From: a virus
Direction: 5' to 3' (one strand)
IMG/VR virus record: IMGVR_UViG_3300032242_002732
Span: 1 to 41,059 of that record
Length of the DNA stretch: 41,059 bases
Notes under the pieces: model-generated
What the model saw: the letters and a program-made list of their open reading frames with translations, nothing else
Told to the model about the DNA's origin: nothing
Database searches by the model: none
In this document: positions 16,698 to 41,059 of the stretch, piece after piece
Layout of the letters: every line of letters begins with the position of its first letter
Numbering within the stretch: the first letter of the stretch is position 1
Program-made: the position numbers and the translations under genes

Positions 16698-17279
16698 TTA
16701 AACAATAACCTTAGTAGTAGCTACAAAAATATTATCCACCATACTATAAAATAGTTGATGTACTTCTCTTTGGAACTTATCTGCTTGTTCAGCTGTCAAA
16801 TTGGTACTATATGCAAATGCGGGTGCTTGTTTACCAGCGGTAATATTAATACCAGTATGACCGATAGCTACATTGTCTTTTGAATATGTAATGCTAACAG
16901 ATGCTTTGCCTTTTTGCTGGATGACACCACCCTGAGTAAATTCTGCATGAACAATAAAGTCATCTCCCTTCATTTCAATAGGTTTACCGATATAACGGTG
17001 TAAAATATTAGCTATATTGGTATTAAACAGACGCTGAAAACAAACTGCCCCGAACGGTTCTAAGTTAGGTATTTCCCAACAAAAATTAACCATCGAATCA
17101 CTATAAATATAGTCTTTTTCGAGAGAGTCTTCTAAGTCAATAAGGTTTAAAGTTACTTCTACTGGAGCAACAAAACTTACAATATTACCTACAGCTAGAG
17201 TCTTATCTCTAAAATATTTATAAGCAAAGCGTTTATGTATAAAGTCTCCGTCGTATTTTGTTTGATCTGTAATAATCAT
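16698..17279 (-). CDS. DUF366-family protein, possible 7-deazaguanine pathway enzyme
   Basis: A 193-residue protein that matches my memory of the DUF366 family over most of its length: YDG near the start, FAYKYF, IVSFVAPVEVTLNLIDLED, SDSMVNFCWE, the QRLF segment, KGDDFIV, KASVSITYSKDNVAIGHTGI. DUF366 occurs mainly in archaea and thermophilic bacteria. I recall that a phage protein of this kind was proposed as the 7-carboxy-7-deazaguanine decarboxylase DpdL, but I cannot verify that here. Three que-type genes and an amidotransferase in the same window fit. It has a sigma70-like promoter and sits next to gp62. Confidence 0.7.
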   Translation of the reverse strand: MIITDQTKYDGDFIHKRFAYKYFRDKTLAVGNIVSFVAPVEVTLNLIDLEDSLEKDYIYSDSMVNFCWEIPNLEPFGAVCFQRLFNTNIANILHRYIGKPIEMKGDDFIVHAEFTQGGVIQQKGKASVSITYSKDNVAIGHTGINITAGKQAPAFAYSTNLTAEQADKFQREVHQLFYSMVDNIFVATTKVIV

Positions 17280-18662: not shown

Positions 18663-18670
18663 ATACTTAG
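18663..18670 (-). promoter_or_regulatory. Putative late promoter octamer for the membrane-protein gene
   Basis: CTAAGTAT on the minus strand, 4 bases before the ATG at 18658. It overlaps the stop codon of the amidotransferase gene. Confidence 0.45.
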
Positions 18671-19323
18671 AAAATAAAGTACGGAGATTTGTGCTTAAAT
18701 TTACCAGCCGGTACAATACAATTATAATCCTGTATTGCATATATAATTCCTTCTTCTAGTGGCACACTACCTTCAAATTCTGTAGATGAAAAATCCCCGT
18801 TGTTTTTGTTTGCAAATAAAGTACTAGCGCTTCTAGCTAGATACGTTATTTTGTATTTAGTATTAAATGCCCAAATAGCATATGTACCTTTCAATGACTC
18901 AATAGCAGATGATACATTTATTTTTTTTTCTAGCATACGAGGTATAATACAACTATCAGTTCTACCTGTAAAATCTTCGTCAGGAAAATGCTCTCTACAT
19001 AATGTTTCGAAATTGCTAATAATACCATTATGTGCCACTATCCAGTCCCCGTAATAAAACGGGTGATTATTTATTGGATCAAAATTTTTCGTTTCTACAG
19101 TCGGCCCACGAGAATGGTAAAGCCAATACCGACCTTGAGTGCTTATAACTGGTGGTTGAAAACATTCTACTGGCTCGGTGAATGTGTTTAATACCTTTTT
19201 AATAATATATGTATTGTTAGAATCAAATATTAACGCCCCAGAACTATAATAACCTCTATCGAGATTATTTTTATATAACTCAAAAGCTCTCGGTTTAAAA
19301 TTACTTCCCGCTATTCCGCACAT
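18667..19323 (-). CDS. Class II (Ntn) glutamine amidotransferase, partner of QueC
   Basis: A 218-residue protein starting MCGIAGSN at 19323, which places the catalytic cysteine at position 2 as in all class II amidotransferases. An upstream in-frame start at 19380 would bury that cysteine and is rejected. Other family marks: YHSRGPT near 70-75, AHNGIISNFE near 95-104, and GRTDS near 118-122. The domain hydrolyses glutamine to give ammonia. It overlaps QueC by 23 bases. In archaea and some phages a Gat domain is fused to QueC (Gat-QueC, archaeosine-type modification), so this pair may be the unfused version. No asparagine synthetase or GlmS domain follows. Confidence 0.85.
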   Translation of the reverse strand: MCGIAGSNFKPRAFELYKNNLDRGYYSSGALIFDSNNTYIIKKVLNTFTEPVECFQPPVISTQGRYWLYHSRGPTVETKNFDPINNHPFYYGDWIVAHNGIISNFETLCREHFPDEDFTGRTDSCIIPRMLEKKINVSSAIESLKGTYAIWAFNTKYKITYLARSASTLFANKNNGDFSSTEFEGSVPLEEGIIYAIQDYNCIVPAGKFKHKSPYFIF

Positions 19324-20044
19324 ATGTAGATTTAGTATAAGGTTTACAATCGTATTTAGACCAAGGCACTTCTTTTGCATACGGTACCGGGTCTATTACT
19401 TTATTATCTATAAAAGCTTTTAATCTTGCTGAACACGATACACATTCTCCGCATGCTATTTCTTTACCCTCGTAACAAGTATGTGTTTGTTTAAAATTAA
19501 CACCTAGTTCAATACCCTCTGCAACAACCTCTTCTTTAGAGTGTTGCATAAAAGGTGCATTAACTTTAATAACGTTTTTACGATTAAGACTATATAGTTC
19601 ATTAACTTTATTAAGGAACAACGACGTACAGTCCCAGTAACCTGAGAAATCATCAGTCTGTACTGCCCCGTAAAATAGGTCTGAAGCTCCAACAGATTCA
19701 GCCCAACCAGCAGCCGTGGTAAGTAGAAGTAAATTTCTAAAAGGAACATAACTTAAAGGCTGTGCATTACCAATATCATCTTTAGCTTTTGGTATATTTA
19801 AGTTAGTATTGGTAAGAGCAGACATAGTAGATATATCTCTAAAGAAATCCATATCTACTATCTTATGTTCTTTAACTTTGCAAGCATCTACCTGATATTT
19901 TGCGCAATCGATTTCTCGAATGATCCGCTGCCCGTAATTAAACGTAATAGCATATACTTCATCGTATTTAAGTTTTTTAGTTACATGGTGAAGTAGTATT
20001 GAGCTGTCCATTCCACCTGATAATATGACTAATGCTTTTAACAT
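19301..20044 (-). CDS. queC: 7-cyano-7-deazaguanine synthase, QueC
   Basis: A 247-residue protein. The PP-loop SGGMDSS lies at 9-15; FNYGQR follows near 39-44, then YVPFRNLLLLTTAAGWAE and GAVQTDDFSGYWDC. The C-terminal zinc site is THTCYEGKEIACGECVSC, with four cysteines. QueC turns 7-carboxy-7-deazaguanine into preQ0 with ATP and ammonia, through the amide ADG. A tail of about 30 residues after the zinc site is coded by sequence that leads into the amidotransferase start. A sigma70-like promoter ends 6 bases before the ATG. Confidence 0.93.
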   Translation of the reverse strand: MLKALVILSGGMDSSILLHHVTKKLKYDEVYAITFNYGQRIIREIDCAKYQVDACKVKEHKIVDMDFFRDISTMSALTNTNLNIPKAKDDIGNAQPLSYVPFRNLLLLTTAAGWAESVGASDLFYGAVQTDDFSGYWDCTSLFLNKVNELYSLNRKNVIKVNAPFMQHSKEEVVAEGIELGVNFKQTHTCYEGKEIACGECVSCSARLKAFIDNKVIDPVPYAKEVPWSKYDCKPYTKSTYVRNSGK

Positions 20045-20088: not shown

Positions 20089-20096
20089 GTAAATAA
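20089..20096 (+). promoter_or_regulatory. Putative late promoter octamer for the 20102 gene
   Basis: GTAAATAA, 5 bases before the ATG at 20102. Its spacing favours 20102 over the ATG at 20096 as the start. Confidence 0.45.
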
Positions 20097-20101
20097 TGTA
20101 T

Positions 20102-20851
20102 ATGAAGAATCAGTTTATATCCGCATTTAATGAATCCTTAGACAAAGAAAGTAACGCAGGTATTATGCACTTAAAGGACGTAGAAGCAAAAAAAGCTGGT
20201 AAAACTTCATTTAAATTAGGAGATAAAACATTTCCTGTTAAAGAAAAGGGTAGAGTTTTAGATAAAGAAGGAGCCGGTATTTTGCATTTTAAAGATCAGA
20301 AAGCTAAAGAAGCCGGTAAAGACACATTTAAACTAGGTGGAAAAACATTTCCAGTCAAGGAAAATAATAAAAAGCATCGCTCCCAACATGTAACTAATTT
20401 TGCAAAGAACGTACAAGAAGCATTAAGCGAAAATTTTTTAGAAGCTAAACCAGCAGTTAAACCAGCAGCCTCCCCCACCCCAGGAGGAGAAGACCATGCT
20501 AGTTGGTCTAAAACATTAGATCCAAAAACAGACCCTAAGGCTTTTGACGGAGCTTCTAACCCAGCTTTAAGACTTGACACAGAGGGTGTTGCTAAAGCTC
20601 GGGAGTGGGTTAAAAAGCTTGATGATATGGCTACTTTTATTAATGGTGTAGATGAAAACAGTTTAAATGCCCAAATTAATGCTTTAGAAATGCGCAATTC
20701 TATACCATTCAAAGGTATTGTACGTCGAGAAGAAAAACGTATTACTAAATTAGCAGAAAATTTACGCGGTTTAGCAGAATTATTTAAAACTGTTATTACA
20801 AGTTCGGGTAAAAAGATACACGACGCTACAAGTAAAATTACTACTCGCTAA
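20102..20851 (+). CDS. Virion-type protein with two tandem ~36-residue repeats, function unknown
   Basis: A 249-residue protein starting MKNQFISAFNESLDKES. An ATG two codons upstream is possible, but it overlaps the late box. Two tandem repeats follow: AGIMHLKDVEAKKAGKTSFK and its partner AGILHFKDQKAKEAGKDTFK, each ending in LGxKTFPVKE. Then come a Pro/Ala-rich linker (PAVKPAASPTPGG) and a helical C-terminal half. The short leader resembles those of other small head-type proteins here, but lacks a clear (L/I)xE. It is the only gene of its island, and its stop overlaps the primase stop (CTAA, 20848-20851). Confidence 0.6.
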   Translation: MKNQFISAFNESLDKESNAGIMHLKDVEAKKAGKTSFKLGDKTFPVKEKGRVLDKEGAGILHFKDQKAKEAGKDTFKLGGKTFPVKENNKKHRSQHVTNFAKNVQEALSENFLEAKPAVKPAASPTPGGEDHASWSKTLDPKTDPKAFDGASNPALRLDTEGVAKAREWVKKLDDMATFINGVDENSLNAQINALEMRNSIPFKGIVRREEKRITKLAENLRGLAELFKTVITSSGKKIHDATSKITTR

Positions 20852-22982: not shown

Positions 22983-22990
22983 ATACTTAT
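22983..22990 (-). promoter_or_regulatory. Putative late promoter octamer for the 22974 gene
   Basis: ATAAGTAT on the minus strand, 8 bases before the ATG at 22974. Confidence 0.4.
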
Positions 22991-23706
22991 TAAATCTTGA
23001 ATGGTTTTTTATCCGTAATACCTAACTGATCCGCTAGTAATTGCTGCTCAGCAAGATCTTTTTGAATTAAAGAATCCTCTTCTCCAAAGAATTCACATTT
23101 ATCATTAATATACATCGATATTTGTGCAACACGTTCTAGTGGTGTACCGTAAATAGGTATAATAGGCGGGCAATCATCGGATTCAAAAAATCTAGAATTT
23201 GCAGATTGTTTAGCTTGATATAATGCATCAAATAATACTGCTATTTCTCCGCGGTAAATAGGATCAACATCTCTATTCTCTTTAGATTGAAGAAGTACAT
23301 CATTTTCTAATGTTAAGGGTATATAAAAAATAACTGAATAAAATTTAACTGCTTGGCGCACTTGAGATACGCACTTGTCAATGAAAGCTTCATCAACTCC
23401 CCCTAAACCTTTTTCAAATAACCATAACGAATATACTAAGTTATCAATGGGTGTGCGATCAAAAACCATTTTCTTTTTGCCATAATTAGCCATTGCTTCG
23501 TCTACAAGGTAATTAAGTATTATTTCTTGAGATTCTTTAGTACCTTGTTTATTAATTGTTAATTTTTTTTCTTTAATTATATCTCTATATGTTTTTTCAG
23601 GACGATTTAATTGAGGCCACTGTAACAACATATCATCTACAAGAGTGGTCTTACCGATACATTGTGTACCGATAATACCTATTTTATTAAGCTTAGTATA
23701 ACTCAT
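22990..23706 (-). CDS. P-loop NTPase, nucleotide-kinase or AAA_28-like
   Basis: A 238-residue protein. The Walker A motif is GTQCIGKTTL at 13-22, after a short beta strand KIGIIG. Further on are MVFDRTPIDN (a DR-type motif near 80-90, as in thymidylate and deoxynucleoside kinases), then QVRQAVKFYSVIFYIPL. The fold fits a small-molecule or nucleotide kinase, or an NadR-like ATPase; the substrate is not decided. It shares one base with the stop of the upstream gene (TAATG type) and belongs to the QueD/QueE block. Confidence 0.7.
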   Translation of the reverse strand: MSYTKLNKIGIIGTQCIGKTTLVDDMLLQWPQLNRPEKTYRDIIKEKKLTINKQGTKESQEIILNYLVDEAMANYGKKKMVFDRTPIDNLVYSLWLFEKGLGGVDEAFIDKCVSQVRQAVKFYSVIFYIPLTLENDVLLQSKENRDVDPIYRGEIAVLFDALYQAKQSANSRFFESDDCPPIIPIYGTPLERVAQISMYINDKCEFFGEEDSLIQKDLAEQQLLADQLGITDKKPFKI

Positions 23707-24188: not shown

Positions 24189-24995
24189 TTAGACTTTAAG
24201 GGCCTTGTTCCACAGCTGTAAATGCATTCTGTTAGAGAACTTAAAGTTGTACTTTTTACATAAGTCAGCAACGATAGGCCCATTGACAAGTAGTTCTTCT
24301 CTACTTCCACACATAGGCATAATCCATACTTGACTGGAATGTAAACCGATATCAGGGTTATTGAGATAGTTCTCTAACACTTCATTTAAGTCAGACTCTT
24401 GACGAGCTACAAACTTAAAGCAAGCATCTTGTTGTACTAAATAACGTAATACTTCTGGTTTAAAGCGTTTCTCGGTAGGATCACCGTTACTTGATAGTTT
24501 AGGAGACGTGGTATAAGTTATCTTACAACCTAAGTGACTCCATTCTTCATCTGGCATGATAGTACCATTAGTTTCAAAGTCAATATGTAATTGAGGTCTG
24601 CCTATGTCATTAGCAGTAAGAGCTTTACTGTAATTAGCAAATTTCCAACGATCTCTAATAAATTTAACAAATTCAATTAATCCTTTTTGCTGAATAAAAG
24701 GTTCTCCACCAGTTAGCTTGAGTAAAGCTCCTTCTTTTAAACGTTCATGATAATCGTTCTTCTCAAACAGCTGAGCAATCTCTTCAAATGTCATTTTATT
24801 TTTCTTAGACCAGCTGACATAACTATCACAACCGTGCGGAGAGTCTTCACTCTTAAAGCCAATACAGGTTAAGTTACACATAGCCATTCTCATAAACACT
24901 GAAGGGTAGCCGATATAACGACCTTCTCCTTCTAGAGTATAGAAAACAAAATCATCTGAAATAAATAAAGTTTTATTAGGGTCTATATTAGACAT
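24189..24995 (-). CDS. queE: 7-carboxy-7-deazaguanine synthase, QueE (radical SAM)
   Basis: A 268-residue protein. Family signs are YTLEGEGRYIGYPSVFMR near 19-36, the cluster cysteines C40, C44 and C56, LLKLTGGEPFIQ near 91-102, and HIDFETNGT. The cysteine spacing is C-x3-C-x11-C, so the last gap is longer than the usual x2. QueE rearranges 6-carboxytetrahydropterin into the 7-deazaguanine ring, between QueD and QueC. It follows QueD in the same operon, 14 bases apart, and a TATAAT box ends 6 bases before the ATG, although no good -35 box was found. Confidence 0.9.
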   Translation of the reverse strand: MSNIDPNKTLFISDDFVFYTLEGEGRYIGYPSVFMRMAMCNLTCIGFKSEDSPHGCDSYVSWSKKNKMTFEEIAQLFEKNDYHERLKEGALLKLTGGEPFIQQKGLIEFVKFIRDRWKFANYSKALTANDIGRPQLHIDFETNGTIMPDEEWSHLGCKITYTTSPKLSSNGDPTEKRFKPEVLRYLVQQDACFKFVARQESDLNEVLENYLNNPDIGLHSSQVWIMPMCGSREELLVNGPIVADLCKKYNFKFSNRMHLQLWNKALKV

Positions 24996-25009: not shown

Positions 25010-25450
25010 TTAAACTTCGTAAATTGCACTATTTTCTGGGTGTTCCCATACTTCTACTTTAGAACACCAGCAACGACCATCAGTCAAATCGTCAATATAG
25101 TCGTTAGCTACATTATAACAATATTCCGCAAAACGCTCAATACCGACGCCATCTTCCATAACAACTAGTTCGATTATGCGCTTATCTGCTAACAACTTAA
25201 AAGTGTCAATATCGGGGTCATTAGATGCGACAATTGTCTTGTGATCAAATGTTTTTTCTAAAGTGTTTTTAAGTTCTTTTAAAGAACCAAAATCTACAAC
25301 CCAGTTGTTATTATCTAGTTCGTTACAATTAAACCAAAATTTAGCTTGTAAACGGTAACCATGTATAAATTTGCAATGACTTTTTGCAAACGGCTGTCTA
25401 AATGCAGCACTACCTAACGGTATGATTTTAGTTGACGTAAATTTACCCAT
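25010..25450 (-). CDS. queD: 6-carboxytetrahydropterin synthase, QueD-like
   Basis: A 146-residue protein of the 6-pyruvoyl-tetrahydropterin synthase fold. The region SAAFRQPFAKSHCKFIHGYR (14-33) corresponds to AAHxL...C...HGH of classical QueD. Here the first His is Phe (F17) and the last His of HGH is Tyr (Y32), while C26, H25 and H30 remain. Other family parts: VVDFGSLKELK, TFDHKTI and the end WEHPENSAIYEV. This FRQ...HC...HGY variant is, to my memory, a known phage and alphaproteobacterial subtype. It supplies the QueE substrate. Confidence 0.85.
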   Translation of the reverse strand: MGKFTSTKIIPLGSAAFRQPFAKSHCKFIHGYRLQAKFWFNCNELDNNNWVVDFGSLKELKNTLEKTFDHKTIVASNDPDIDTFKLLADKRIIELVVMEDGVGIERFAEYCYNVANDYIDDLTDGRCWCSKVEVWEHPENSAIYEV

Positions 25451-40037: not shown

Positions 40038-41059
40038 GTGTATCGTAACGTATATTATAATTCTAGAGAGTCTTCTGCATTTCTATTTACTTGGGATAAA
40101 ACTGGTAAACGTGTTGTAACTAAAACACCTTACAGTCCTTATTTTTATGTAGAAACTAATCAGGATAATGCTGATGCTTTGTCTATTTTTAACACTAAGT
40201 TAAAGAAAAAAATTTTTAAGAATTCGTTTGAACGCAATAAAGCTGCGCAAGACGGTGCAATTAAACGCTTATATCATAATATTCAGGTAGAACAGCAGTT
40301 TCTTATTGAAAAATTTAAAGACGATTACGAAAAGCCTGAATTCTCTGAAAACGCTTTAAAGGTTTGTTTTCTTGATATTGAAGTTTATTCTCCGGACGAA
40401 TTCCCTGAAGCTAAGGATGCTAAACACCCTATTAATCTTATAACCATATATGATAACTTATCTGATACATTTTATACTTTTGGTGCAAAACCTTATACCC
40501 CTACTCGTAAAAATGTAGTATATACTGAATGTAGTGGTGAGATTGATTTACTTAACAAGTTTTTAGAATTTTGGGAAAAAGACTATTATCCCGATATACT
40601 ATCTGGTTGGAATACAGATTTTTTCGACTTTCCTTATTTAATTAATCGTATTAGTAGTATGCTAGGAGAAAGCGACGCTAAGCGCTTATCTCCGTTGAAA
40701 AGTCTTTGGTGTCGTAAAGGCATTTTTGTTAAAGGTCAAGAACTAGATCGTTGGTATATACATGGTATGTCTGCTATGGACTATATGGAAGTGTATAAAA
40801 GTTTAGCTAGGGGTTTATTAGAGTCTTATGCTCTTAATTTTGTTGCTCAGCATGAACTTGGAGAAGGTAAATTAGCTGTTAACGCAACCAGTTTAGCCTC
40901 TCTGTCTATTGATGATTGGAAATCTTTTGTAGACTATAATATTCAAGACGTTGATCTTTTAGTAAAAATGGAGAAAAAACTCCAATTCTTTAAGATTATC
41001 CGTATGTTAGCCTATAAAGGTTTAACTAGTTTTGAAGCTGCTTTAGGTAAAGTACAAAT
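40038..41059 (+). CDS. 43: DNA polymerase, gp43-like family B (partial, N-terminal 340 residues)
   Basis: No ATG is available. I take GTG 40038 (VYRNVYYNSRESSAFLFTWD, with Met in place of Val); an AAGAAGG stretch lies 14 bases upstream. The frame is open to the right edge. The 3'-5' exonuclease motifs are present: Exo I CFLDIEVYSPDEF, Exo II SGWNTDFFDFPYLINR, Exo III DYNIQDVDLLVKME. The polymerase palm is beyond the window. The GTG start and long gap suggest weaker translation than for the coupled genes before it. Confidence 0.92.
   Translation, partial: MYRNVYYNSRESSAFLFTWDKTGKRVVTKTPYSPYFYVETNQDNADALSIFNTKLKKKIFKNSFERNKAAQDGAIKRLYHNIQVEQQFLIEKFKDDYEKPEFSENALKVCFLDIEVYSPDEFPEAKDAKHPINLITIYDNLSDTFYTFGAKPYTPTRKNVVYTECSGEIDLLNKFLEFWEKDYYPDILSGWNTDFFDFPYLINRISSMLGESDAKRLSPLKSLWCRKGIFVKGQELDRWYIHGMSAMDYMEVYKSLARGLLESYALNFVAQHELGEGKLAVNATSLASLSIDDWKSFVDYNIQDVDLLVKMEKKLQFFKIIRMLAYKGLTSFEAALGKVQ

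Follow-up and report, generated by a model that had tools for sequence, protein, structure and literature searches.

QueC, which makes 7-cyano-7-deazaguanine (preQ0), is usually assumed to draw on free ammonia. A 2026 paper on the QueC family gives ammonia as the nitrogen donor of the enzyme and discusses a GMP synthase whose GATase subunit is the product of a separate gene (PMC13329287). In phage 9g and in Crenarchaeota, a class II glutamine amidotransferase (Gat) domain and QueC are joined in one polypeptide, Gat first (phrog_10428). Together with DpdA, this fused Gat-QueC gives dG+ (PMC6884629), the product in phage 9g, whose annotated cluster has no QueF. Other phages carry different bases: the DNA of Vibrio phage nt-1 contains, per million nucleotides, 232 dPreQ0, 72 dADG and 44 dG+, the last credited to an ArcS homologue by the 2019 phage survey (PMC6884629), and in Vibrio phage 6E35.1a, which has QueF, QueC and Gat genes, dPreQ1 amounts to 15% of dG (PMC12028318). 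Flavobacterium phage immuto has a cassette of QueD, QueE, FolE, DpdA, formyltransferase, kinase and QueF genes, and Campylobacter firehammerviruses replace all of their dG by a 7-deazaguanine (PMC10273834).

The window analyzed here, 41,059 bases long, is an entire IMG/VR record and a fragment of a T4-like phage genome, as indicated by genes for a portal, head protease, tail sheath stabiliser, head closure protein, late sigma factor and SbcCD-type nuclease. It stops within the DNA polymerase gene. The features relevant to 7-deazaguanine metabolism and its neighborhood are as follows.

19301..20044, minus strand: queC, 7-cyano-7-deazaguanine (preQ0) synthase, 247 aa (Pfam QueC 8.9e-62; TIGR00364)
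18667..19323, minus strand: gat, predicted stand-alone class II glutamine amidotransferase (glutaminase), 218 aa, starting MCGIAG (GATase_6 5.2e-8)
19301..19323, minus strand: 23-base overlap of the end of queC and the start of gat (from the sequence)
24189..24995, minus strand: queE, 7-carboxy-7-deazaguanine synthase, a radical SAM enzyme (phrog_2076 1.3e-42)
25010..25450, minus strand: queD, 6-carboxytetrahydropterin synthase (PTPS 1.7e-19; phrog_2389 8e-37)
16698..17279, minus strand: DUF366 protein (PF04017), four genes downstream of gat (Pfam 3.9e-21)
40038..41059, plus strand: start of the phage DNA polymerase gene, truncated by the end of the window (81% to the polymerase of a relative, G007)

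The preliminary description of this DNA placed the start of a class II amidotransferase with Cys2 inside the final 23 bases of queC, and the coordinates and the overlap proved correct, with both genes on the minus strand. The gat reading frame opens at 19380, and the start was taken at the MCG at 19323, the biologically sensible choice that makes the cysteine residue 2. QueC of the window is a canonical member of its family. It matches PF06508, scores 180.6 bits against TIGR00364 (cut-off 150.3), and has the SGGMDS P-loop, CYEGKEIACGECVSC and the zinc-binding cysteine cluster with its CxxCxxC motif, the first spacer of the cysteine motif being 7 rather than the published 8. Next to queC, a plus-strand gene at 20096-20851 encodes a repeated motif, GILHxKDxxAKxAGKxxFKLGxKTFPVKE, that varies among relatives.

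When aligned to GlmS, PurF and AsnB, the window Gat has the residues of a class II glutaminase, namely the Cys2 nucleophile, the glutamine-binding R72 and D123, and the oxyanion-hole pair N99-G100. These five residues are invariant across 38 distinct Gat relatives, and gat has a dN/dS of about 0.06-0.2; judged from these residues, the glutaminase site is intact and has been kept. A confident AlphaFold model (pLDDT 89) found its best Foldseek match in 1xff, the glutaminase domain of GlmS (E 2.5e-11), with the same fold and catalytic C2, R, N, G and D. Unlike GlmS, Gat has no sugar isomerase domain and sits with QueC. The possibility that Gat is instead closer to an asparagine synthetase-like family, raised in the preliminary description, was ruled out, as the GlmS glutaminase domain is the nearest solved relative. 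The only PHROG matching the window Gat over its full length is phrog_12378.

The pair is a constant feature of the phage clade to which the window belongs. Sixty IMG/VR loci encode a QueC with 74-96% identity to that of the window; three of them stop within 46 bases of queC and were left out of the count, and in all 57 that extend past queC the gene directly following it is gat (Gat identity 51-87%), within a long shared gene order. A direct Gat-pattern search of viral contigs recovered two loci, and the remainder were reached through QueC. Spacings of the two genes lie between -26 and +20. Only the closest relatives of the window have the 23-26-base overlap (7 loci plus the window, near-identical contigs being counted apart), while spacings elsewhere run from -1 to +20, so that adjacency is conserved and overlap is not. 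As the 57 loci form a single syntenic clade and include some near-identical contigs, they are not independent observations, and independent evidence for the pair comes from its recurrence in other phage groups.

Such recurrence is found among cultured phages: a distant Gat adjoins queC both in Pseudomonas phage pf16 and in KVP40-like phages of Vibrio. In Vibrio phage nt-1 this is a 202-aa class II amidotransferase (VPFG_00173, phrog_12378) annotated as hypothetical, and the first base of its gene is the final base of queC; the queC-gat junction of KVP40-like phages is of the ATGA type. A tblastn search with the nt-1-type Gat returned 51 cultured phage records, 49 from Vibrio and two from Pseudomonas, and gat followed queC in every one of them whose coordinates were compared. 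The order FolE-DpdA2-QueF-QueC-Gat occurs in pf16, 1.081.O, F86 and 6E35.1a (Gat p0048), Vibrio phage 2.275.O has QueF, a YhhQ-type transporter, QueC, Gat and FolE, and nt-1 has the pair with no QueF. Several of these Gats are labelled only as hypothetical protein or nucleophile aminohydrolase, for example at L080:20717-21325, MW824377 24672-25277 and NC_041881 39648-40286.

The pairs of the KVP40-like phages, pf16 and 2.275.O resemble that of the window in gene order, in genes that abut or nearly so, and in a stand-alone class II Gat of about 200 aa with an MCG start. They are accompanied by FolE and mostly also by QueF and DpdA2, whereas the window clade has a DpdA-type protein like those of immuto and Campylobacter phages. 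Their Gats are only about 24% identical to the window Gat. Vibrio Gats also have Gln at the position of its glutamine-binding Arg, and findings from Vibrio phages may therefore not carry over fully to the window. Because Gat follows QueC both with QueF (pf16, 1.081.O, F86, 6E35.1a and the window clade) and without it (nt-1), QueC is the constant partner; Gat tracks QueC and not one particular end product. The adjacency of queC and gat is no accident. This bears on the proposal that Gat is a GlmS- or EgtC-like enzyme that acts on some other substrate, either a sugar or an amide that it hydrolyzes, and is merely co-transcribed with QueC. That proposal fits with the closest solved folds (the glutaminase domain of GlmS, PurF and EgtC, a stand-alone hydrolase) and with a glycosyltransferase encoded three genes downstream of gat. 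We nevertheless consider it unlikely, since Gat adjoins queC specifically in distantly related phages, and the neighborhoods of the pair otherwise differ considerably between KVP40-like phages, pf16 and 2.275.O.

The locus had also been described as a split version of Gat-QueC, which now appears doubtful. The fusion and the pair are predicted to share class II Gat and QueC activities. However, the fused protein is one polypeptide with Gat first, while the window has two genes with queC first, a reversal that the preliminary description had correctly recognized. Unfused genes in this reverse order are present at all 57 loci. Fused Gat domains belong to another lineage, with an RAEPTTE motif. 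In hhalign comparisons the window Gats matched stand-alone Vibrio Gats at E 3e-19 (190 columns) and the fused Gat domain at E 9.5e-10, and a tree separated stand-alone from fused Gats with support of 92/89; this tree evidence is moderate, given midpoint rooting and long branches. Profile comparison and tree together place the window Gat outside the fused lineage with moderate support. A further Gat-QueC-like fusion was seen in Xanthomonas phage PhiXhv-12 (L125:2667-4190), beside a glycosyltransferase and a deacetylase. The annotation shows no folE, queD or queE for about 3 kb around it, and this fusion may serve a different pathway.

Since the record ends inside the polymerase gene, the QueF, DpdA-type protein and formyltransferase of the window phage are predicted from its relatives, which share its synteny and have QueC proteins up to 82% identical to that of the window. 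In all six relatives that reach past the polymerase, the order is polymerase, DpdA-type protein, a small gene, formyltransferase, AAA_28 kinase-like protein and QueF, and FolE is present in the three longest relative contigs. It is likely that the window phage carries the same genes just past the end of the window. QueF is complete in 6/6, with the NADPH motif ESKSMKLY and the catalytic SNCKITKQPD (SNC-QPD, Cys and Asp), and matches TIGR03138 at 2.6e-63, yet under the cut-off of that model. The formyltransferase-like gene (L069:8985-9578) and the AAA_28 kinase-like gene (L069:9568-10137) lie between the genes for the DpdA-type protein and QueF, and immuto has them in this order too. The window itself encodes another AAA_28 protein, at 22990-23706.

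The DpdA-type protein, 268-271 aa in length (L069:7953-8762; G007:64953-65762), was found only by way of its position next to the polymerase, which it occupies in 7/7 relatives examined. Sequence profiles showed no similarity of this protein to TGT, DpdA or DpdA2, its profile had no match among solved structures, and searches of the clade with PF01702 (TGT), DpdA (from 9g) and DpdA2 (from nt-1 and relatives) returned no match. Its function as a transglycosylase is thus suggested by homology to annotated and measured phages: it is 47-51% identical to immuto gp206, annotated as DpdA, and, at about 40% identity, it resembles proteins from 15 records of Campylobacter phages. The family is known as DpdA3. 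The immuto formyltransferase is likewise similar (41-49%), as are its kinase and QueF. Immuto differs from the window in having no Gat beside queC and a QueC that is only about 25% identical.

The presence of this protein also bears on whether the pathway serves DNA at all. PreQ1 is a substrate of bacterial tRNA TGT as well, and a PF01702 protein was not found in the relatives, so the phage genes might feed queuosine into host or phage tRNA. We regard this as highly improbable, because a homologue of the immuto/Campylobacter-type DNA transglycosylase stands beside the DNA polymerase in all seven relatives examined and the firehammerviruses with this protein replace all of their dG by a 7-deazaguanine (PMC10273834).

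With a QueF that keeps its NADPH motif and catalytic Cys and Asp, preQ0 should become preQ1 in this clade. Because the relatives encode a formyltransferase and the DpdA-type protein as well, we predict a base of the preQ1 type that may be formylated. It had been suggested that the pair amidates preQ0 to give a G+- or ADG-type base. Such an end product is not supported: apart from the genes of the relatives, 6E35.1a has dPreQ1 and nt-1 mainly dPreQ0, and neither of these two measured phages with an unfused pair has mainly G+ in its DNA. A related possibility is that the pair is an archaeosine synthase in two pieces, with ammonia from Gat used to convert preQ0 to G+ as in 9g. The fused protein, which with DpdA yields dG+ (PMC6884629), has the two activities that the pair would combine, and nt-1 DNA does contain a trace of dG+. 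Against this, QueF, found in all relatives that cover the region, would draw preQ0 off towards preQ1, the pair-bearing 6E35.1a has dPreQ1, the fused Gat domain forms its separate lineage, and in nt-1 dPreQ0 is five times as abundant as dG+, a trace for which the ArcS homologue could account. Archaeosine synthesis by the pair is accordingly a distinctly unlikely reading.

We instead favor, as fairly probable, the interpretation that queC and gat encode a two-gene preQ0 synthase unit in which Gat feeds QueC, leading to a preQ1-type base in DNA. The genes, their adjacency, the synteny and the intact active-site residues are observed; contact between Gat and QueC and the transfer of ammonia are inferred. 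The precursor, 7-carboxy-7-deazaguanine, would be made by the phage itself through FolE, QueD and QueE. Gat would act as a stand-alone glutaminase that frees ammonia from glutamine, and QueC would use ATP and this ammonia to convert the precursor to the amide and then to preQ0. In the relatives QueF would reduce preQ0 to preQ1, the DpdA-type transglycosylase would exchange guanine in DNA for the preQ1 base, and formylation of the inserted base is probable. Formylated dPreQ1 was reportedly described in 2023. The likely outcome would be that dPreQ1 or formyl-dPreQ1 takes the place of guanine and protects the phage DNA against restriction. Calculated nucleoside masses are 295 Da for dPreQ1, 323 Da for formyl-dPreQ1, 291 Da for dPreQ0, 308 Da for dG+ and 309 Da for dADG. 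That many phages make deazaguanines with a QueC but lack Gat counts against this interpretation. Supplying ammonia is the economical role for Gat, as QueC needs ammonia (PMC13329287), and it is a role consistent with every phage in which the pair occurs. The earlier idea of an overlapping pair acting as one unit that feeds QueC thus holds in part: the unit is conserved, its glutaminase site appears intact and ammonia supply is its likeliest role, but the overlap itself is not conserved.

A more far-reaching version, which we offer tentatively as a rather unlikely extension, is that this is a two-subunit phage preQ0 synthase whose own glutaminase was recruited separately from Gat-QueC, in a clade that replaces much or all of its guanine by formylated or further tailored preQ1, with DUF366 perhaps involved in the tailoring. 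The DUF366 protein is 79-97% identical across loci, is more conserved than most of its neighbors and evolves under strong purifying selection (dN/dS about 0.01-0.06). No paper linking DUF366 and 7-deazaguanine was found, and the protein had no match in the genome contigs searched. The one phage relative found, distant and weak, is from a Microcystis phage with no que genes nearby, and its structure model is poor (pLDDT 56); for these reasons we claim no pathway role for it.

Machinery of this kind for 7-deazaguanines is known, and the unfused Gat partner appears to be the new part. The word amidotransferase is absent from the 2025 Vibrio phage paper (PMC12028318), and no stand-alone Gat beside QueC was found in the accessible part of the 2026 QueC family paper (PMC13329287). 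The accessible literature, supplements aside, yielded no description of one, and a prior notice is possible. In about 50 sequenced phages Gat has gone unrecognized under the label "hypothetical protein", and an uncultured T4-like clade has it too. Its position next to QueC is no safe sign of archaeosine, and for the window clade there is a testable prediction that the DNA base is of the preQ1 type. With a dedicated unfused glutaminase, preQ0 synthesis in the infected cell would be driven by glutamine.
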